The notes beneath the pieces were generated by a model. That model saw only the letters and a program-made list of their open reading frames with translations. It made no database searches and was not told the origin of the DNA. Shown here piece after piece: positions 1,389-22,690 of a DNA stretch of 53,213 nt (its first letter is position 1; each line of letters begins with the position of its first letter). The translations under genes and the position numbers were made by a program. The DNA comes from Bacteroidota bacterium (GTDB lineage Bacteria; Bacteroidota; JABWAT01), in NCBI GenBank assembly GCA_013360915.1, contig JABWAT010000017.1, positions 1 through 53,213 of the forward strand, read 5' to 3'.

Positions 1389-1973
1389 TTAAGTGCGTAA
1401 ACTGTTGATATAGGAAACGAGTGCTTCGATGGCTGTCAGAAAGGTCCCGGTGCTCTGACTGGCCTTCCCAATAGAAAAACTGCCTTCCACCGAAGCCCAG
1501 ACTAAATGAGCGACCCCGGTCGGATTCACCTCCGGCCGGATACTGCCTTCCCGGATGCCTGATTCAATGGTTTCTCTGATCATGGCGATGATCTGCTGGC
1601 TCAGCGAATCAAGACGTTGTTTGAACCCTTCATCAATGGGTGCCATTTCCTGCACCAGATTGTTCAGCGGGCATCCAAGACGAATGTTTTGAGAGTCAGC
1701 CCGCGAAGCCACCAACCGGATGACCGACACAAGCCGGTCCGGAGCAGTTCCTGTCTGTTGCCGCACCTGGCCCCAGAGTTTCAGGTAACCGGGCGTGAGC
1801 ATTTCATCAATCACCGCGTAACCCAGATCCCGTTTGGTCGGGAAATAATAATAGAAGGCTCCCTTGGTGATTCCCAGATCCTCAATGATCTTATCGGACC
1901 GCGTTCCCTGAAAGCCGTTCAGGCGCATGACCTCGAAATTTTTCTCCAGAATGGCCTGTCTTGTATCTGTCAT
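1389..1973 (-). CDS. TetR/AcrR family transcriptional repressor
   Basis: The N-terminal helix-turn-helix is typical of TetR (a segment reading IIEDLGITKGAFYYYFPTKR, about 30 residues from the start), followed by a divergent ligand-binding helical domain. The total is about 194 residues from the chosen start. An in-frame ATG 18 bp upstream (1991) is rejected because it falls inside the operator palindrome and upstream of the predicted transcription start. The chosen ATG (1973) is 5 bp downstream of the -7 element, so the message is probably leaderless or nearly so. The operator lies between the promoter elements, which fits autorepression. The adjacent NmrA-like gene is the likely second target. 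Confidence 0.88.
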   Translation of the reverse strand: MTDTRQAILEKNFEVMRLNGFQGTRSDKIIEDLGITKGAFYYYFPTKRDLGYAVIDEMLTPGYLKLWGQVRQQTGTAPDRLVSVIRLVASRADSQNIRLGCPLNNLVQEMAPIDEGFKQRLDSLSQQIIAMIRETIESGIREGSIRPEVNPTGVAHLVWASVEGSFSIGKASQSTGTFLTAIEALVSYINSLRT

Positions 1974-1978
1974 GGATG

Positions 1979-2010
1979 CAAAGTTATACATACCAGTTGG
2001 TATGTGTCAA
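1979..2010 (-). promoter_or_regulatory. tetR promoter with embedded operator
   Basis: Read on the minus strand, TTGAC begins at 2010 and the -7 element TAACTTTG occupies 1986-1979, with 21 bp between TTG and TAnnTTTG. This fits the Bacteroidota promoter form. Between them, at 1989-2004, lies the palindrome CATACCAGTTGGTATG, whose 7-bp arms are separated by 2 bp. A repressor bound there would block RNA polymerase. Confidence 0.75.
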
Positions 2011-2077
2011 GTGGGAGAAATACTTTTAACGCAAAGCCAGCAAAGAATATGCAAAGAGACGATGGATAGGTATTGAA

Positions 2078-2219
2078 TCCCGAAGGGATGACATTATTGT
2101 AGTAACACAGTTTAAAAAATGATTCATTCCTGACATTTTTTATAATGCCACCCCTATCGGGGTTTTTCAGGGTCTTGGTCTTTATCGCGTTTTCTACAAT
2201 AATGGCACCCCTTACGGGG
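2078..2219. repeat. Inverted-repeat element (CTACAATAATG type)
   Basis: The left end (2078-2102) and right end (2194-2219) are imperfect inverted copies sharing CTACAATAATG followed by a CCC-TT-GGG mini-hairpin. A third related piece, ATAATGCCACCCCTATCGGG, lies inside at about 2142-2161. There is no open frame. The arrangement looks like a small non-coding palindromic or MITE-like element. From memory, similar CCCC-GGGG/CATTATTGTAG sequences occur between genes in other Bacteroidota. Confidence 0.55.
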
Positions 2220-2259
2220 TTGGGGAGCCTTCTGCCGGACGGGGTCCTGTATTTAAAAA

Positions 2260-2459
2260 CCAGAAAGGTTGCGTTCTCCTGTATTTACCCTTTGCGCTTT
2301 CTGCGGTGAAACGCATTTAAACGCAACGACGCAGCGTATTCGCAAAGTACGCGATGGTTCTTGTATTAAAAACCAAAAAAAACCTTTGCGTTCTCCTGTA
2401 TTTACTCTTGACGCCTCTCTGCGTTAAAACGCATTGAACCTGACGCCTTTGCGTACCTA
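2260..2459. repeat. 114-bp tandem repeat family, locus 1
   Basis: The segment carries the recurring words TTTGCGTTCTCCTGTATTTA, then CTCTGCGTTAAAACGCATT or a variant. The CTGCGG/CTGCGT word recurs after about 116 bp (about 2299 and 2416). The same words and period occur at 24277-24740 in inverted orientation and at 37905-38250 in the same orientation. Confidence 0.75.
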
Positions 2460-2987
2460 TTAAAACCGGAACCCCACCTTCACCGACCCGGATACCACCA
2501 CCGCCTGTGGTTCATGACGAACGCTTCCCACCTGAACAGGCGAGGTTCCGCTGACCGGCAGATGCAGAGCTGCCCACGGGTTCACATACAGCCAGGAGGT
2601 GAATTCCCAGGTATAACCGCCACCCAGTGTAAGAACCCATTGCTCAAACGATCGGGTGCCTCCGGACTCCGGTGCAAGGCGATTCGACCACCATTCCACT
2701 CCGCTGCCCACCCACCAGCCTGTTGCAGTGCTGTCAAAAAAGTAATCTCCGATGAGGGCCACTGCATCCAGCCGATGCGATTTAATCCCGTCACTGGTGG
2801 CGAAATCAGGTAAAGTGGTCCGGGTGAGCACGGCACGGACCTGCCACTGGTCATAACCGGCAATCACAGATCCGTAGTAGCCGCCCGATAAATACGGCAG
2901 CGCATCCAGTTCGGCTCCCCAGCGCAGAGACTGGGCGGTTAACGGAAGCGAAAGAATCAGTATCAGGAAGGTGGTCACAGGTTTCAT
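2460..2987 (-). CDS. Predicted outer-membrane beta-barrel protein, unknown function
   Basis: From the ATG at 2987 the protein is 175 residues, with a clear signal peptide (MKPVTTFLILILSLPLTAQS). The mature part alternates aromatic and small residues (GGYYGSVIAGYDQW, WWVGSGVEWWSN, LGGGYTWEFTSWLYVNPWAALHL) and ends in phenylalanine (VGFRF), as outer-membrane barrels do. An upstream ATG at 3020 would add 11 polar residues before the signal peptide and is rejected; GGAGA precedes the chosen start. No named family is recognised. The next gene is divergent and there is no evident operon. Confidence 0.75.
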   Translation of the reverse strand: MKPVTTFLILILSLPLTAQSLRWGAELDALPYLSGGYYGSVIAGYDQWQVRAVLTRTTLPDFATSDGIKSHRLDAVALIGDYFFDSTATGWWVGSGVEWWSNRLAPESGGTRSFEQWVLTLGGGYTWEFTSWLYVNPWAALHLPVSGTSPVQVGSVRHEPQAVVVSGSVKVGFRF

Positions 2988-3203
2988 GTTTTCTCCGGTT
3001 TTTATGCAAAGATCAGGCAAATCCGTTTGCAGAAGTCAGGACATTTGTCCGGTTTTTCAGTTGCAGGAACAGTTCTTCTGAACACTTCAGAAAACCTTAA
3101 TACTACAGGTCCGCTCTGTGAGAAATGGTACGCCACCCGACCAGAGAATCACGTACCTTTCTGTGTTGACACAACAACCTGCATCTAGAATCAGGAGGTA
3201 ACG

Positions 3204-4937
3204 ATGGCCCGCATCCTGTCCGCCCTGTTAATCCCCGCGTTTATACTGCTCACCGGCTGCGAGGAAGCCACCGAACCGGATACCACCCCTCCCGTGGTCA
3301 CCCTCACTTCACCGGTTAACGGTGCTTTTCTCTCGGGACCTACATCCATTTCACCAGTCATCACCGATGAATCCGCCATCAGGACGGTCTACTTTCTTGT
3401 GGATGGCGATACGGTTGCCACCGATACCAAAGCACCCTTCACATTTGTATGGAATGTGGGATTCTGGGCGGATGGAAACCAGCACACCCTTCTGATCATT
3501 GCGGTTGACGAAGCCAACAATTCAGGTCAGTCCAACCTGATCAGCGTGACCGTTTCTGCCGAGGCAACTCTGACGATTCAGCCTAAGGCACCATCCGATG
3601 GCAGGGAACACGAGGAGAATGCCTCCGTCACGTTTTCCTGGTATCCGTTGCAGGGTAGTCAGGAATATCAGCTCGAAATCGATTCCGATTCCCTTTTCTC
3701 ACCGGCTGACCAAACTCTGTCCACCACCGACACCCTTTTCATGGTTTCTTCACTGGCATCGGGACCCCATTACTGGAGGCTCCGCGCAAAAGGCATGAAC
3801 GGACGGCTGAGCACCTGGAGTGAAAAAAGGGTGTTTTTCATGGGAAAAGCCTATTGGGTCCTCCGGCTGGATCGCGGCCGGGCCGAATGGATTAACGGAT
3901 TGGTTGAAACGGCCGATGGGGGCGCTCTTTTCATCGGGCCCTCCTTCACCGATACCACTCAGATCATGGAGGACTGGTGGTATGGAAAGGTTTCTGCATC
4001 GGGAAAGGTTTTATGGAAGAAAACACTCACACAGCCAAAATCAGATTATGGAAACGCCGTCCTGAGGACTGCCGGTGATGAGTACCTGTTGTTTGGAGGA
4101 AGCTCCGATCCAAACCGGACCATGAGACTGATAAAAATCACCGAGTCGGGCGGGCTGATCTGGGATCAGACGTATGGTAAGACCGATTCCAGTTCCTGGG
4201 GTGTCAATCTCGTGGGACTTCCCACCGATGCAAGTGCAGCGCTTGGAGGTGAACTGAACAATAAACCAGCCATTTTAAAAGTGGATGGGTCCGGTGCGGT
4301 TCAATGGTCCGTCCAGTTTCCCATGGTGAACGCAGGATCCTGTTACCTCTCCATGCGAACCGATCATGTTCTGATCGGGACCGCCTCCCATCACCTCATC
4401 TTTCTTTCCTGGTCCGGTTCAGTTCAATCGCAGGTGGAATTCCCTGATTCGCTCTTACTCAGACGGCCTGCCATTCTTTCCGGTGAGAACGGACTGCTGA
4501 TTCCCTACCTGTCAAACGGGAAAAGCGGCCTGCTTAAAACCTCTGCCACTGGCACTAAAAACTGGTCCTATATGGCACCGGCCGGCACTGAACTGGCCTC
4601 CTTCATGGACTGGTTCGGCAATGGAATCATGGTGGGCGGGTCGAGGAATGGTCAATGCTATCTGGCCGTTTTTTCCTATACCGGATCCCTTTTGTGGGAG
4701 AAGGAATTGGTACCCGGCCGTATCGGACGGATTATCAGAACCGCTTCGGGCGGATTGTATCTCTCAGGAACCACTCACTCCAATTTCAGACATCCGACCT
4801 CGGATTTTCTGATAATGAAAACGGATAAAAACGGAAATGGATTGCCCACCTTAGCCGGTCGGAGCACGGTGCTTTCAACGCTGTTCAGCCGGAAACCAGG
4901 CCACCGGAACGGGGATGATCTGTATCCGAAGAAATAA
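3204..4937 (+). CDS. Lipoprotein with Ig-like and fibronectin-like domains and a repeat-rich C-terminal region
   Basis: The protein has 577 residues. A lipoprotein signal peptide ends in the lipobox LTGC (cysteine near residue 19), so it should be anchored in a membrane. Residues about 28-115 form a bacterial Ig-like domain (PPVVTLTSPVNGA through VDEANNSG). Residues about 120-215 resemble a fibronectin type III-like fold (SWYPLQGSQEYQLEIDSD). The remainder contains repeats of a DGG/GKVLW...T type typical of beta-propeller-like or PQQ-like sheets (SASGKVLWKKTL, ITESGGLIWDQTYG, VDGSGAVQWSVQF). A strong ribosome binding site (AGGAGG) lies 7 bp before the start. It ends without a T9SS sorting domain. 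Its substrate or partner is unknown. Confidence 0.8.
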   Translation: MARILSALLIPAFILLTGCEEATEPDTTPPVVTLTSPVNGAFLSGPTSISPVITDESAIRTVYFLVDGDTVATDTKAPFTFVWNVGFWADGNQHTLLIIAVDEANNSGQSNLISVTVSAEATLTIQPKAPSDGREHEENASVTFSWYPLQGSQEYQLEIDSDSLFSPADQTLSTTDTLFMVSSLASGPHYWRLRAKGMNGRLSTWSEKRVFFMGKAYWVLRLDRGRAEWINGLVETADGGALFIGPSFTDTTQIMEDWWYGKVSASGKVLWKKTLTQPKSDYGNAVLRTAGDEYLLFGGSSDPNRTMRLIKITESGGLIWDQTYGKTDSSSWGVNLVGLPTDASAALGGELNNKPAILKVDGSGAVQWSVQFPMVNAGSCYLSMRTDHVLIGTASHHLIFLSWSGSVQSQVEFPDSLLLRRPAILSGENGLLIPYLSNGKSGLLKTSATGTKNWSYMAPAGTELASFMDWFGNGIMVGGSRNGQCYLAVFSYTGSLLWEKELVPGRIGRIIRTASGGLYLSGTTHSNFRHPTSDFLIMKTDKNGNGLPTLAGRSTVLSTLFSRKPGHRNGDDLYPKK

Positions 4938-18100: not shown

Positions 18101-19060
18101 ACAAGCACCGGTGTCAGCGATTCCAGCTCTCTCACCCTCTCCGATGCTGCCCGTAGTTTGTTCAGCGGGTCGATTTCCATTCCCGGACCAGTGAAGGCAA
18201 ATACCCTGATTTCCTATTACTTCACCGCCCGCGACCAATCCAATGCCGGAAACATGGTCAGGCACCCGGCCTCTTCTGATTTATCCTTCATGACTGGCAA
18301 AGCCGATGTGGATGACATGGAAGTTCCGGGATACTGGCTGTTCGATGGTAAGTTCGGATATTCGACCAAGCGGCGCCTCTCGGGAGATCAGGCCATTCAC
18401 AACAACAAAGGCAACAATTACACCTCCAATGATGTGTCAACGGCCACCTATTCAGGTTCCTTCGATTTTACCGGGTATGACAATCCGGCCTTTACCATTC
18501 AATCGGCCTTCCGGTTTGGGTCCGGTGATACCTGTTATGCAGAAATCAACACAGGGAATGGCTGGATTCCAAAATTCAAGTTTGCCGGTGGTTCTTCCTC
18601 CTTCTGGACCAACTTTTTACCCTACACCATTTTCGCACCCGAAGCAGCCGGGCAGCCCACGGTTCAGATCCGGTTCCGTTTCGTATCGGATGGGGTTGGC
18701 AGCGGCACCAACAGCGGTATTTATTTCGATGACCTGAAGGTCTTGGGTGATACCGTCAGTTTTGTGAGTGTGGAAGGAAATGGCATTGAAATTCCCTCTG
18801 TGGCTACTCTCGACCAGAATTACCCGAATCCGTTTAATCCGGCCACGGTGATCCGTTACCACGTTCCGGTCAGCGGAGCGGTTCGTCTGATGGTGTTCGA
18901 TGCACTGGGTCGTGAAATTTCCGTTCTGGTTGATGAAAAGAAACCCGCCGGAACCTACTCGGCCACCTTTTCCGCAACAGGACTTTCCTCTGGTGTGTAT
19001 TTCTACAAACTGGCGATTAACGGAAGTTCCCTGACACGGAAAATGCTCCTGTTGAAATAG
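15182..19060 (+). CDS. Large secreted S8 subtilisin-family protease with T9SS sorting domain
   Basis: The 1292-residue preproprotein has a signal peptide (to about residue 21), a propeptide with inhibitor-like features (about 30-120) and an S8 catalytic domain with Asp173 (VVDTGVDWDH), His253 (NGHGTHVAG), the oxyanion Asn347 (SSAGNAND) and Ser424 (QGTSMASP). The triad is intact. After about residue 490 come beta-sandwich modules and a segment (about 615-830) resembling a glutamine-amidotransferase-like fold (GGRIYLSGQDVGWDM). A MAM/jelly-roll-like domain follows (about 1040-1200), then a T9SS sorting domain (NYPNPFNPATVIRYHV to the terminal MLLLK). It should act outside the cell or on its surface. 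It is transcribed alone, between two copies of a terminator-bearing repeat. Confidence 0.95.
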   Translation: MKFRLTGTFLLLFTALSVVAAENGKGPSGTPANQVIVKFRESGIRAYRAESSLNTVMKATGAIQSSALMEKSNPIADEIGLNRVYVLNYQTITDADRAVSQLTRRTDIEYAELVRYFSHDRLETPEKGNKPASPMATPDDELLASIHPLGQVKAFQAWDLQTGDTSVVVAVVDTGVDWDHEDLVSSVYINQGEYGPDGKGGEKQSNGVDDDANGFIDDFRGWDFISSSFTDSPPAPGEDASVEDNNPMDFNGHGTHVAGISAGMTNNGIGIASLSWGVKVLPCRIGYHTTSGDGIGNSYNMGRAFIYAADMGADVINLSFGNSGQFITDASLYATRKGTLVVSSAGNANDEFASEMELKPWVLTVAAVNRNDLKTYYSTYGTWVKISAPGGEQLTASSNGFLSTVVYPSTLYSGKKYEYFQGTSMASPFVASLAALIKSQNPEISVIDLFERIRQTSDDIYALNPTYAGKLGAGRINALRALTETGLSPAKPSLRLESVLVEDGGNENGILNLGETASLIFDFQNEWGGAENLTATLTTDAGNWPLTVSNNTDVTGPVASVLDSVESTFSVEFPLSVDENGIPMVIGYELTISDDNGFSQTFPGRLAIEPNALLVPDFHADVDYTNNYLELMDQAGLSYDVWNGSVDNITADILKKYAMVFWPMGWTFPSLTEANQNAISGYIEAGGRIYLSGQDVGWDMADPTGTTYTESGGASKTWFESYMKVVYGGDDNNETTIKGVDSDLLSDGVESSIEMPGLGSSTQYPDFVTLKEGSVAFLKYGNGQIAGTRYETGNARVVYLPFGGLEAVSDSVSANLLTARISNWLYGYSVDSFIPLKNTEDEQEERLVSVSVSGKKPVSSVDLYYQAFTTGTSPDLNLTKLPMTFADGRFSASLPAVGLGNSVLYFFISRFEDGSLSPYQVYQYNVKTDVTKPVAISSSEWPNTMEKSGTYPVEFTVDDESGIDESSVFVHYYTSTGVSDSSSLTLSDAARSLFSGSISIPGPVKANTLISYYFTARDQSNAGNMVRHPASSDLSFMTGKADVDDMEVPGYWLFDGKFGYSTKRRLSGDQAIHNNKGNNYTSNDVSTATYSGSFDFTGYDNPAFTIQSAFRFGSGDTCYAEINTGNGWIPKFKFAGGSSSFWTNFLPYTIFAPEAAGQPTVQIRFRFVSDGVGSGTNSGIYFDDLKVLGDTVSFVSVEGNGIEIPSVATLDQNYPNPFNPATVIRYHVPVSGAVRLMVFDALGREISVLVDEKKPAGTYSATFSATGLSSGVYFYKLAINGSSLTRKMLLLK

Positions 19061-19354: not shown

Positions 19355-19564
19355 TCAATATAAATGAACAGGGATGTTTTTTGAACGGGAAGAGAGAGTT
19401 GTCTCGTTTCGTGGGAGAACGATTTTCCGACCGAGGACACAAAGGGAAGAGTTCATTGAGGCCAAGCCCTCGTTGTGATACCACAACCGCTTTGCCGGAT
19501 CATGGGAAAAACCAACATATATCCGGTTGAAGGATTCGGAATATAAAACGTAGGTGAAGTACAT
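19355..19564 (-). pseudogene. Truncated GIY-YIG nuclease (second cassette copy)
   Basis: The first 35 residues (MYFTYVLYSES, then RIYVGFSHDP and RLWYHNEGLA) are nearly the same as the intact copy at 19715-19981. After NEGLA the frame diverges into unrelated sequence and stops at residue 69, so the catalytic glutamate half (HEKEL region) is missing. I call it a degraded duplicate. The 5' sequence is almost identical to the intact copy, indicating a recent duplication. Confidence 0.75.
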
Positions 19565-19578
19565 CGGGATAAAACAAA

Positions 19579-19601
19579 AAAGTCCGGTTTTACCGGACTT
19601 T
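19579..19601 (-). terminator. Terminator after the tRNA-like pseudogene
   Basis: AAAGTCCGGT and ACCGGACTTT pair around a 3-nt loop, and a T run follows on the minus strand. It is a sequence copy of the tRNA-Asn terminator at 19996-20018. Confidence 0.8.
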
Positions 19602-19606
19602 CTTTG

Positions 19607-19685
19607 CTCCGCGAGTCCGTCTGAAGCCGGACAACCCCATGATTAATCCGGCCTCTGCCGGACTCCACCATTGAGCTATCGCGGA
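19607..19685 (-). pseudogene. tRNA-Asn-like pseudogene, mosaic with GIY-YIG 3' end
   Basis: On the minus strand it starts with the tRNA-Asn acceptor and D-arm (TCCGCGATAGCTCAATGGTG) and ends with the matching TCGCGGA acceptor strand. The anticodon arm is replaced by a CCGGC-AGAG-GCCGG hairpin identical in type to the last codons of the GIY-YIG gene. The T arm is a new perfect 5-bp stem (GTCCG/CGGAC) with an 8-nt loop and no TTCGA. It cannot decode asparagine. It may be a relic of recombination or a structured tRNA mimic. Confidence 0.7.
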
Positions 19686-19714
19686 ATGTTTTCTTATCAG
19701 CTACAACCCCATGA

Positions 19715-19981
19715 TTAATCCGGCCTTTGCCGGACTCCATCTTTGAGCAGGTGATCCCGTATCCAGGTCCTGCCAGAATGGGTTTTGAGTTCCTTTTCAT
19801 GTCGCATGGCCTGAGATCTTTCTGCGAATGGCTTCGAATAGATCAAAATCCAGGGTCGGTAGGGTTTGGTAGCAAACGCCAACCCTTCGTTGTGATACCA
19901 CAACCGCTTTTCCGGATCGTGGGAATAACCAACATAGATCCGGTCAGCGGATTCAGAATATAAAACATAGGTGAAGTACAT
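19715..19981 (-). CDS. Small GIY-YIG family nuclease
   Basis: The 88-residue protein is a single GIY-YIG domain: the two signature tyrosine strands are TYVLYS (residues 4-9) and IYVGYS (15-20), followed by the conserved arginine in KRLWYHN, and a candidate catalytic glutamate in MRHEKELK (about residues 60-67). Its length is normal for stand-alone UPF0213/URI-type members, whose roles are mostly unproven. It starts immediately after the tRNA-Asn terminator. Its last codons (DGVRQRPD) and 3' tail are the same sequence that replaces the anticodon arm in the neighbouring tRNA-like copies. No ribosome binding site is obvious. It may be expressed weakly or by read-through. Confidence 0.75.
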   Translation of the reverse strand: MYFTYVLYSESADRIYVGYSHDPEKRLWYHNEGLAFATKPYRPWILIYSKPFAERSQAMRHEKELKTHSGRTWIRDHLLKDGVRQRPD

Positions 19982-19995
19982 CGGGATAAAACAAA

Positions 19996-20018
19996 AAAGT
20001 CCGGTTTTACCGGACTTT
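19996..20018 (-). terminator. Terminator of tRNA-Asn
   Basis: On the minus strand, AAAGTCCGGT and ACCGGACTTT form a 10-bp stem with a 3-nt loop, followed by TTTG. It starts 6 bp after the tRNA 3' end. Confidence 0.85.
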
Positions 20019-20023
20019 CTTTG

Positions 20024-20095
20024 CTCCGCGAGTAGGACTCGAACCTACAACCCCATGATTAACAGTCATGTGCTCCACCATTGAGCTATCGCGGA
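20024..20095 (-). tRNA. tRNA-Asn (anticodon GTT)
   Basis: A full cloverleaf can be written by hand. The acceptor stem is TCCGCGA/TCGCGGA with discriminator G; the D stem is GCTC/GAGC; the anticodon stem CATGA/TCATG surrounds CTGTTAA with anticodon GTT; the variable loop is GGGTT; the T stem GTAGG/CCTAC has loop TTCGAGT. CCA is not encoded. It lies downstream of a Bacteroidota-type promoter and a tRNA-like leader, and is followed by a strong terminator. Confidence 0.97.
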
Positions 20096-20097
20096 AT

Positions 20098-20167
20098 GTT
20101 TTCTTATCAGCTACAACCCCATGATTAATCCGGCCTTTGCCGGACTCCACCATTGAGCTATCGCGGA
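20098..20167 (-). pseudogene. tRNA-Asn 5' half fused to GIY-YIG 3' tail
   Basis: On the minus strand this begins with the tRNA-Asn 5' part (acceptor strand and D-arm), then switches to the sequence that ends the GIY-YIG gene (CCGGC-AAAG-GCCGG, TTAATCATGGGGTTGTAG, GCTGATAAG). It has no T arm or 3' acceptor strand. Its start coincides with the expected transcription start of the tRNA promoter, so it should be co-transcribed as a leader of tRNA-Asn. Confidence 0.65.
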
Positions 20168-20175
20168 ATGGAATG

Positions 20176-20207
20176 CAAAGGTACGCCAAATCAACTCATT
20201 TTGTCAA
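20176..20207 (-). promoter_or_regulatory. Promoter of the tRNA-Asn unit
   Basis: On the minus strand, TTGAC starts at 20207 and TACCTTTG occupies 20183-20176, with 21 bp between TTG and TAnnTTTG. The predicted start lies at about 20169, at the 5' end of the tRNA-like leader. Confidence 0.75.
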
Positions 20208-20395: not shown

Positions 20396-22690
20396 CTATT
20401 TCATCAGCACCATTGATCCACCCGACTGGTGAGTGGTTCCTGCCTGACTCCGGAAGTGAATCCGGTAGAAATACAACCCAGAAGCCACCGACCCGTTTTG
20501 CCCCGATGAGGCATTCCAGACCAGCTTGGTAAATCCACCGGAAGGAAGGTCCTGCGATTCAGCAAACACCTGCTGGCCCAGCAGATTAAACACCTGGAGG
20601 GTTAATTTGCCGGCTGTCGGCACATCCACAGGAATCGTGGTGCTGGGATTAAACGGATTCGGGTAATTCTGGTGCACCATAAACCGGTCGGGCATCGGCG
20701 CTTCCAATTCCAGAATCCCGCTGTAAGAAACAGATCCATCCAGATCGAGTTGTTTCAGACGGAAAAGTGATTTGTGAGTGGCGATTAGTGATTGGAAAGA
20801 ATACGACTTCGGAGAATTCGTCGTCCCGCTGCCAGCCACAAATCCAATTGTCTTCCATTCAGAAACGGACCCTGAGGTTCTCGAAGGGTCTGTTTCTGAG
20901 AGGTTTCTTCCTGTCCCTTCGAGACCCTCAGGGTCCGGAAGAAACCTCTGAACTTCCCACCCATAATTATTCACCTCGCTGGCGGTGGTCCAGTTCAACG
21001 TCACGCCGTTCCGGTCCATGGATCCGGTAAAGGAGGTGAGTTCAACGGGAAGCGATCCGCCTGAGCCAGTCACCCAGGAAAGAATCCGGTCGAGGTGACC
21101 GGTCAGTCCGGTCCGGAATCCGCTCCAGGAAAAAGTGGAAAATGACACGTTGTATGCCCCGTCATAGGCGATGGCGTAAGCCGAATCGGGTTTGGTGAGG
21201 GTTTGCCAGGCAATGGTGGTCTGGCTTCCGTACACCGGCCGGATGACATCGGGGGTATTGACCTCCACCGAATCCACATACCCATCATGAATCAACCGGC
21301 CCGGCAGGGCTGCTTTTCCGGTTCCGCCATCCTCAAACCGCAGCCGGGCTTTCAGAGTCTGCCGTAAAAACGTGGAATCAGAAAAAGCGCGTCCATGATC
21401 ATGATAACTTGCCACATCCTCTCCCGACAGAATCAGTGTGGATTCGGTATTGTTCAGCAGGAACGATTCCAGGGAATCGCGTTGGGTGGCCGTCAGAAAA
21501 TCCCGTTCATCCCAGATGATTGTTTTCCATCCGGAAAGAGACAAGGTTGGCTGGCCCGTCCGGTCAAATTCATCCCAATGATGGCCGAGGTAGTTAAGCG
21601 CATGAGCCAGGGAATCGCGGCTTACAGGATCTTCCCACGTCACCAGAATATCGCCGGTGGGTTTATAGGCAGCCATACCCACCGTGACCGGCGTTCCCCA
21701 ATCGGTTTCACCGGTCTTAAATCGCACGGATACCGGAATCAGACCGGTCGGTGCATCGGGAACCACCAGCGAACCGGAAAAGGAAGCGAATACACCGGTC
21801 GGAATGGTGATAGTTTCCGTCAGAGACATTCCGCTTCCTTCACCAGGATCGGTCCCGGAAAACACCTCCGCCCCCGTCACCGGTGTTAACCGGTTGGCCA
21901 TCGGAATCACGGTAGAATCGGATACAGACATCACCTGATACAGCGGTTCTGACCAGTCATTGAGATCATTCTTCACGCGGAGCCCCAACCGGTAAGATCC
22001 GGCAGACAGAACCGTGGTGCTCAGGTTGGCGGTAACGGCTTCGGCCGGGTGTGAAAACGCTTCATCTTTTGCAGACAATGCCTGCCCCGATCCTTCGCCG
22101 GGATCGGTTCCGATGAAATATTCCGCCTGAGTAATGGCAGAATAATTGGCCGATGCCCCCTTTAACGCCTCAGACACCAGAATCACCTGCCGGACCGGAT
22201 CGGACCAATCCCCGCCAGCCTTCTGAAACCGCACCGACAGAACCGAAGGTCCCGTTGGAAGACCATCTGCTTCCAATGAGGTTGTTGCCATTGAATAGGA
22301 AGACGAGGCAACTGACAGGGCCGTTCCGTTTCCTTCACCGGGATCGGATCCGGAAAAGATTTCAGCCGACGCCAGGACCGGATACGCCGATGGGTCCACA
22401 TCCGGAGCAGAATTAATCATGATCACCTGGCCAACCGGCGCAGACCAGGATCCATCCGACTTTTTCACACGGATGTACAGAACGGCAGGACCGGTTGACA
22501 AAGCACCGGTTTCCACCGTGGCAGAAAGGCTTTCCAGACTTCCATCAGCCAATCCATCCTTCAGCAGAAGAGAAATACCATTCCCCTCGCCCGGATCGGA
22601 ACCGATGAAGTATTCGGCCTCTTCAATCACCTGTCCGCCCGCCGAGGAAACCACCCCGGCAAGCAGGAAAAACAGTAAGAAATTTTTCAT
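20396..22690 (-). CDS. Secreted repeat protein with T9SS sorting domain
   Basis: The 764-residue protein has a signal peptide (cleavage near SSAGG). It then carries four repeats of about 95 residues, each opening with a form of AEYFIGSDPGEGNG, spread over about residues 23-345. A segment from about 350 to 520 resembles the amidotransferase-like module of the nearby subtilisin (TIIWDERDFL, TLILSGEDV). Residues about 530-665 form a beta-sandwich of the kind that precedes sorting domains (VELTSFTGSMDRNGVTLNWTT), and the T9SS domain follows (NYPNPFNPSTTIPVDV to the end). The sandwich is interrupted near residues 580-610 and 631-643 by in-frame repeat-derived sequence. It lies 12 bp after the beta-helix gene, so the two are probably one operon. 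Substrate unknown. Confidence 0.88.
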   Translation of the reverse strand: MKNFLLFFLLAGVVSSAGGQVIEEAEYFIGSDPGEGNGISLLLKDGLADGSLESLSATVETGALSTGPAVLYIRVKKSDGSWSAPVGQVIMINSAPDVDPSAYPVLASAEIFSGSDPGEGNGTALSVASSSYSMATTSLEADGLPTGPSVLSVRFQKAGGDWSDPVRQVILVSEALKGASANYSAITQAEYFIGTDPGEGSGQALSAKDEAFSHPAEAVTANLSTTVLSAGSYRLGLRVKNDLNDWSEPLYQVMSVSDSTVIPMANRLTPVTGAEVFSGTDPGEGSGMSLTETITIPTGVFASFSGSLVVPDAPTGLIPVSVRFKTGETDWGTPVTVGMAAYKPTGDILVTWEDPVSRDSLAHALNYLGHHWDEFDRTGQPTLSLSGWKTIIWDERDFLTATQRDSLESFLLNNTESTLILSGEDVASYHDHGRAFSDSTFLRQTLKARLRFEDGGTGKAALPGRLIHDGYVDSVEVNTPDVIRPVYGSQTTIAWQTLTKPDSAYAIAYDGAYNVSFSTFSWSGFRTGLTGHLDRILSWVTGSGGSLPVELTSFTGSMDRNGVTLNWTTASEVNNYGWEVQRFLPDPEGLEGTGRNLSETDPSRTSGSVSEWKTIGFVAGSGTTNSPKSYSFQSLIATHKSLFRLKQLDLDGSVSYSGILELEAPMPDRFMVHQNYPNPFNPSTTIPVDVPTAGKLTLQVFNLLGQQVFAESQDLPSGGFTKLVWNASSGQNGSVASGLYFYRIHFRSQAGTTHQSGGSMVLMK
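20761..20797 (-). repeat. AATCACTAATC-type short repeat inside a coding region
   Basis: On the minus strand the sequence runs TTCCAATCACTAATC then CCACTCACAAATCAC, encoding SLIATHKSLF in frame. Related strings occur between genes at 35138-35178 and, in shorter form, at 19061-19084. Here the repeat replaces the turn normally found before RLKQLD in such domains. Confidence 0.55.
20859..20951 (-). repeat. In-frame compound palindromic element inside a T9SS gene
   Basis: Two 22-bp arms (20867-20888 and 20915-20936) are inverted copies with one mismatch; each contains the core CCCT-AGG and TTCGAGA words. Each arm is itself the loop of a smaller hairpin: CAGAAAC/GTTTCTG around the first, and GGTTTCTTCC/GGAAGAAACC around the second. 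The element stays in frame and encodes about 30 residues rich in P, E, G, T and S. Confidence 0.75.

Follow-up and report, generated by a model that had tools for sequence, protein, structure and literature searches.

Why should the only tRNA-Asn gene recovered from a bacterial genome lie among broken copies of itself and copies of a nuclease gene? The question is raised by positions 19355 to 20207 of the window, the whole 53,213-nucleotide stretch of Bacteroidota DNA analyzed here, which an initial annotation had described as a tandem mosaic of tRNA-Asn and a GIY-YIG gene. Every part of that description was found, on the minus strand. Comparison with other genomes shows that this arrangement of a small GIY-YIG nuclease gene and a tRNA gene is widespread, and that the window is one example of it. 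The arrangement is probably the work of a small homing-endonuclease element that parasitizes tRNA genes, and we infer both the mobility of this element and the cutting of DNA by its nuclease from the comparisons given below.

On the minus strand, the array begins with a promoter-like sequence, TTGACA...TACCTTTG (20176-20207), read directly from the sequence, which we take to be of the Bacteroidota type TTG/TAnnTTTG. It was not flagged in a promoter scan of the E. coli type; a 40-nt match, 80% identical, stands ahead of tRNA-Asn in another genome (G001). There follows a broken 5' part of tRNA-Asn (20111-20167), recognized by sequence reading and repeat comparison, in which tRNA positions 1-23 (20167-20145) lead into a hairpin, TCCGGCAAAGGCCGGA (20144-20129), that replaces the 5' anticodon arm, and then into TTAATCATGGGGTTGTAG (20128-20111). 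The intact tRNA-Asn(GTT) (20023-20095; ARAGORN, and 71.6 bits in Rfam) is the sole Asn tRNA among the 39 distinct tRNAs recovered from this genome, whose assembly has gaps and gave 42 tRNA matches in Rfam. An intrinsic terminator 3' of the intact tRNA (19993-20021; repeat comparison and scan) is followed by an intact GIY-YIG gene (19715-19981; 88 aa; PF01541, E=2.5e-14) of the PW subfamily defined below, and the end of this gene overlaps a tRNA-Asn remnant (19701-19739; sequence reading and repeat comparison) made up of TGGAG (19739-19735), the hairpin TCCGGCAAAGGCCGGA (19734-19719) and TTAATCATGGGGTTGTAG (19718-19701). Beyond it lie a tRNA-Asn pseudogene that retains its acceptor stem and has both arms swapped (19605-19685; sequence reading and folding), a copied terminator (19576-19604; repeat comparison and scan) and a truncated second GIY-YIG copy (19355-19564; PF01541, E=3.5e-6), the homology of which stops after about 38 codons. 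In the pseudogene, the anticodon arm has given way to a hairpin at 19662-19647 and the T arm to another, GTCCGGCTTCAGACGGAC, at 19632-19615; its predicted fold is at -40.7 kcal/mol, as against -25.3 for the intact tRNA-Asn. The period of about 410-417 bp and the near-identity of the copies, both reported earlier, agree with direct repeats spaced at 410 and 417 bp (86 nt at 98% and 156 nt at 92% identity).

The sequence in place of the anticodon arm had been interpreted as the tail of the nuclease gene. It is actually derived from tRNA-Asn: the hybrids in the window consist of tRNA-Asn sequence (TGGAG / TTAATCATGGGGTTGTAG) with a swapped stem-loop, the hairpin TCCGGCARAGGCCGGA, in the position of the anticodon arm, and the stop codon of the nuclease gene falls inside the remnant at 19739-19701. 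Outside the array, a perfect 28-nt inverted match (18813-18840 versus 20646-20673) joins the two convergent flanking genes and encodes a C-terminal motif, QNYPNPFNP, common to both of their proteins.

Further cases occur in the same genome. At locus L008, a tRNA-Asp and its terminator are followed by a degenerate GIY-YIG gene, a 3' part of tRNA-Asp in which TCCCGATGAGATCGGGA replaces the 5' side of the T arm, and the terminator again. At the contig ends C4 (L349) and C5 (L353/L002) there are broken fragments resembling tRNA-Ala, the anticodon arms of which have been swapped for hairpins, and the end of C5 also carries a further GIY-YIG gene. Because these broken pieces lie at the contig ends, and because ARAGORN found neither tRNA-Ala nor tRNA-Ile in the pieces of the genome that were read, an array of elements probably splits the assembly at C4 and C5. 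Such breaks are what might lead one to regard the array in the window as itself an artefact of assembly or binning, a concern that the initial annotation had raised. The probability of this is negligible, since the copies diverge at 2-8% of positions, the region lies in the interior of a contig of 53 kb, and the same layout of nuclease and tRNA is present in a related genus (L175) and in the single-contig genomes G056, G187, G131 and G185. A chance match of tRNA halves is ruled out by the recurrence of the same architecture in dozens of genomes.

A search of 60 relatives from the same phylum with PF01541, together with an analysis of gene neighbourhoods, separated the nucleases into two sequence types, PW and GW. 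The nuclease of the window belongs to the GIY-YIG superfamily by its Pfam match and by its conserved catalytic residues; among up to 176 relatives, Y15, R25, H29 and E61 (domain numbering) are conserved in 100%, and Y4 and G17 in 99%. PW nucleases are nearly domain-only (roughly 80-110 aa) and are under purifying selection, with a median dN/dS of 0.14 over 20 pairs of genes. The closest solved structures by sequence are those of the UPF0213 proteins 1YWL (E=7e-6) and 1ZG2 (E=2e-3) in the PDB, which likewise have a single GIY-YIG domain; to our knowledge, no tRNA-linked element structure has been reported for proteins of this type. The PW alignment is matched in 129 of 198 genomes drawn from Bacteroidota, GW-type proteins being included among the weaker matches. 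Named records with relatives come from Flavobacterium, Marinifilum, Belliella, Echinicola and Chitinophaga. Others are found in metagenome-assembled genomes labelled Chloroflexi, Acidobacteria, Armatimonadetes, Patescibacteria and others, labels that call for caution; the named and the labelled records alike were detected with a closer alignment (A2), the full alignment (A1) being too diverse for a pattern scan of contigs. A phage or plasmid vehicle was also considered and rejected, as protein searches gave few and distant matches (about 34-41% identity).

By the initial annotation's own reckoning, its proposal would fail if most relatives had the homologous nuclease genes at a distance from tRNAs. 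Instead, a tRNA or tmRNA gene lies on the same strand within 250 bp of 156 of the 227 full-length PW copies, and within 800 bp of 194, counts that include tandem and related copies and are therefore not independent. The PW profile had been seeded from tRNA-linked examples, with membership of the subfamily assigned by protein sequence alone. The 156 close neighbours lie upstream of the nuclease gene in 123 cases (most of them 40-70 bp away) and downstream in 33, and no tRNA or tmRNA was found on the opposite strand within 500 bp of any of the 227 copies. For a 3.5-Mb genome that has about 45 tRNA genes, adjacency by chance is estimated at well under 1%. For the sister subfamily GW, a tRNA neighbour was recorded in 2 of 49 cases. 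Many PW copies that have no tRNA nearby are situated at contig ends or within arrays. The host tRNAs comprise at least 15 isotypes, and these cluster on the nuclease tree (56 changes of isotype versus 127 after shuffling); when a single gene was kept per locus and sequences above 70% identity were collapsed, 58 changes remained versus 100, with none of 200 shuffles as low, in a tree built on 70 columns and with many forks unresolved. A tRNA-Asn-linked relative from G001 falls into one group with the nuclease of the window (SH-aLRT 96). Tandem arrays are found at L076 (8 copies) and in G185, G131 and G187; the eight GIY-YIG genes of L076 (positions 1492-4255; G052:C34) recur once per ~364 bp and are separated by tRNA-like 3' pieces with hairpins of the TCCGCCTNAGGCGGA type.

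The unit common to these loci comprises a tRNA gene, whole or partial, a terminator and a GIY-YIG gene. It is flanked by a tRNA remnant with a hairpin that replaces or interrupts one or two of the stem-loops. In the majority form, the element lies on the 3' side of an intact tRNA, with a 3' piece as the remnant; in the mirror form, it lies on the 5' side, with a 5' piece. At 100 of the 121 PW genes with an upstream tRNA, a partial copy of the same tRNA follows, so that the replacement end of the gene comes first, the endonuclease ORF second and the displaced native end last. In 81 of these 100 remnants, a hairpin (5 bp or longer) occupies a junction within the copy, its sites being the anticodon arm (50), the T arm (44), the D (5) and V (4) regions and elsewhere (7). 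Because 27 of the 46 anticodon-arm replacements begin and end no more than 2 nt from both stem bases, such cases represent the exchange of one stem-loop for another, as at L251, where CACCCCTGATAAGGGTG is out and TCCCGATCAGATCGGGA is in. Most remnants match the carried tRNA. In 55 of the 100, the match ends at the 3' end of the tRNA with unrelated sequence beyond, as expected of a displaced resident end; in 39, it runs on into the same terminator, as expected of a tandem unit. A 5' tRNA piece stands ahead of 27 of the 33 mirror-form genes; 22 of these pieces have a hairpin, often in the D loop.

Which arm is disrupted depends on the isotype (chi-square 28.1, permutation p 0.0008, related copies not being independent), and a near-identical hairpin, CCTGCCTGCCGGCAGGCAGG, occupies the same D-loop position in the tRNA-Arg remnants of L092, L105, L198, L214 and L249. 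Some remnants retain an intact T arm, and the T loop therefore is not the cut site in all lineages; a single universal cut site in the T loop is ruled out by the anticodon-arm and D-loop cases. A strict tie between the hairpin and tRNAs is ruled out as well, as the TCCCGA palindrome also occurs elsewhere in the genomes: away from tRNAs, hairpins of the form TCCCGAN{3,12}TCGGGA number 18 versus 3 in the control for G000, and 20 versus 1 for G056. Hairpins of this common type may be a separate dispersed repeat, and the hairpin sequence differs between genomes.

Filled and empty versions of the same site were found for tRNA-Gly, tRNA-Pro and the RNase P RNA hairpin described below, so that presence and absence at orthologous, precisely delimited sites, as seen for homing genes, can be followed. 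The tRNA-Gly locus of a Balneola-like genus is empty in G162 and filled in G053. In G053, hairpins disrupt the anticodon and T regions of the resident tRNA-Gly, whose two halves are separated by a GIY-YIG gene and a complete tRNA-Gly of different sequence that has a terminator of its own; immediately to the left of this carried tRNA is a run of N. Seven other genomes of the genus share the resident sequence unchanged. The carried copy departs from it at 7 positions, and the differences include a paired A-U to G-C change in each of two stems (T and acceptor) as well as one A-C mismatch. A foreign inserted end together with a displaced end matching that of relatives is thus clear in G053 versus G162. 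In G099, the tRNA carried by the element is identical to the resident, standard tRNA, and foreign or recoded sequence is therefore not required; a recoded rescue tRNA as a general rule is ruled out by this case. At the tRNA-Pro locus of genus g17, 28 loci were read, among which a GIY-YIG gene was present in 3 and a scar alone in 3, the others being empty.

The hosts are not limited to tRNA genes. A GIY-YIG gene lies directly 3' of tmRNA at L079 and L130, and the tandem unit at L079 is made of sequence from downstream of tmRNA. At L082 and L197, a GIY-YIG gene lies 23 bp from an Rfam match to RNase P RNA, and we read the sequence as placing it within the RNase P RNA gene itself. Relatives from the same family have a conserved stretch like GGAAAGCCGGGTAATCGC, a short hairpin, which we take to be P3 by comparison with E. 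coli RNase P, and GGGAGGAAAGTCCGG. In G064 (L197, about 1500-2144), as in G053 and G162 (L082, L169), the strands of this hairpin are lengthened and enclose a GIY-YIG gene; in G064, inverted-repeat arms of 24 nt flank the gene on both sides. The hairpin arms of G064 and G053 differ in sequence, and their pairing is retained. G275 (L364) has the same appearance, with a contig that begins within the 5' strand. Apparently, then, 4 of the 58 genomes from one family have a GIY-YIG gene in the P3 loop of RNase P RNA. A search of the remaining tRNA-less loci for other RNA hosts gave nothing convincing beyond RNase P and tmRNA. The RNase P location and the exchange of hairpins are what specialists would probably find least expected.

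The earlier proposal of a unit that spreads by recombining with tRNA-Asn, possibly aided by its own nuclease, is in keeping with these comparative data, except that its hosts extend past tRNA-Asn to many isotypes, tmRNA and, by our reading, RNase P RNA. In the mechanism that we favour, the nuclease would cut one of the arms (anticodon, T or D) of an empty tRNA gene, and homologous recombination from an element-bearing copy would then repair the break, bringing in the element and, with it, replacement tRNA sequence. The essential tRNA would remain functional, its old end would become the remnant, and the hairpin-swapped arm would represent the destroyed cut site. Tandem arrays such as that of the window could result from further rounds of this process or from remnants recombining unequally with one another. 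A puzzle for this model is the identity of carried and resident tRNA in some cases (G099), which counts against it, as the carried copy should be cut too. If the model is true, it would define a common, undescribed class of selfish element in tRNA, tmRNA and RNase P RNA genes across much of Bacteroidota, one that rewrites essential RNA genes, and it would give a concrete role to a large family of unassigned small GIY-YIG proteins. It would also account for tRNA genes that have been replaced horizontally, for fragmentary tRNAs and pseudo-tRNAs that contain unusual hairpins, and for assemblies that break at tRNAs, and provide a natural counterpart to cleave-and-rescue elements.

The PW element would work like known homing elements. 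Homing endonucleases of group I introns in tRNA genes are likewise mobile, exploit tRNA genes and spare tRNA function; these systems rely on ribozyme splicing, whereas in the PW element the tRNA would be restored through copied sequence. A group I or II intron at the window locus was rejected, as Rfam finds only tRNA above the gathering score. The mechanism is made plausible by two published systems, mitochondrial mORFs and SegB. The mORFs of Glomus sp. (atp6, atp9, cox2 and nad3) and Allomyces macrogynus (atp6) carry a duplicated 3' end of their host gene, in the order host gene 5' part, carried replacement 3' end, endonuclease ORF and displaced native 3' end; the endonuclease is of the GIY-YIG type in atp9, and the replacement sequence is foreign in some cases (PMC3630166). 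The logic and the order of parts are like those of the PW element, but the hosts of mORFs are mitochondrial protein genes and those of PW are tRNA, tmRNA and RNase P RNA genes of bacterial chromosomes; the swapped hairpins in the displaced end, the mirror form that replaces the 5' end and the tandem arrays also set the PW element apart. SegB is a free-standing GIY-YIG homing endonuclease of the tRNA region of phages T4 and T6 that cuts within tRNA genes at the motif RAWTSGAAC (PMC13096335), which is the reverse complement of the T-loop sequence GTTCSAWTY. Like SegB, PW genes are free-standing GIY-YIG genes adjoining tRNA genes of many isotypes and subject to tandem amplification, although kinship is certain only at the level of the domain superfamily. 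SegB is a phage gene, however, whereas the PW nuclease is chromosomal, nearly domain-only and divided into isotype-specific lineages; a carried replacement tRNA and hairpin-swapped remnants, both features of PW, are absent from the available part of the SegB description (PMC13096335). In engineered Cleave-and-Rescue elements, a nuclease breaks an essential gene and the element supplies a working copy (PMC7951863); the PW element differs in being natural and bacterial and in that its rescue copy is not always recoded. The initial annotation had known no described element of this form. In the open literature, with subscription papers and preprints outside the search, no description of a chromosomal bacterial element of the PW form was found, but SegB and the mitochondrial mORFs are close analogues.

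Could the arrays have arisen by amplification without homing? A nuclease gene resident beside a tRNA would then cause breaks that lead to tandem duplication and decay of the tRNA, with no movement between sites. Tandem arrays are indeed common (L076, G185, G131 and G187), SegB causes segmental amplification of its tRNA neighbourhood (PMC13096335), and the 39 remnants that run into the same terminator are what simple tandem duplication predicts. We nonetheless regard this explanation as unlikely in view of the 55 remnants that stop at the tRNA 3' end, the presence or absence of the gene at orthologous tRNA loci, its arrival with a different tRNA in G053, its location inside an RNase P RNA gene and its spread over many isotypes and phyla. 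Even less probable, in our opinion, is that the gene serves its host by processing or repairing tRNA-linked transcripts, or has a defensive role, and that it stays close to tRNAs so as to be expressed with them. Such a role would agree with purifying selection on the protein and with its constant same-strand position a few dozen bp after the tRNA, but hardly with patchy presence among close relatives, the frequency of scars and of truncated copies, the destruction of a resident tRNA (G053) and the lack of a fixed partner isotype.

The hairpins pose a question of their own, even if the nuclease is a homing endonuclease of tRNA genes. They might be independent mobile palindromes, unrelated to the nuclease or its target site, that gather in non-functional tRNA pieces; same-type hairpins are dispersed elsewhere in the genome, their sequence varies among genomes, and functional tRNAs would be intolerant of them, which would leave them visible in remnants only. 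We view this as possible but doubtful, because hairpins are present in 81 of 100 remnants, mostly at arm bases or loops, as against some 20 of the commonest type per 3.5-Mb genome, because CCTGCCTGCCGGCAGGCAGG is near-constant at one D-loop position in five tRNA-Arg loci, as if inherited with the element, and because the disrupted arm depends on the isotype. Alternatively, the hairpins may take part in mobility, with small GIY-YIG nucleases mobilizing palindromes into stem-loops, at either the loop or the base (tRNA arms or P3 of RNase P RNA) and the GIY-YIG protein replacing a transposase. This suggestion, which is speculative and on balance rather improbable, is based on the RNase P-borne gene of G064 with its 24-nt arms and on the flanks of GW loci. 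At the latter (L001, L004 and 40 others), palindromes occur at 1.31 per kb versus 0.28 per kb at 900-1200 bp, and flanking inverted repeats of at least 12 nt occur in 10 of 42 loci versus 0 of 42 controls. Inversions were observed at two loci with otherwise syntenic flanks: in G099:C10 (L286/L293) the tRNA and the element are inverted together, and in G001:C2 (L335) the tRNA alone is inverted.
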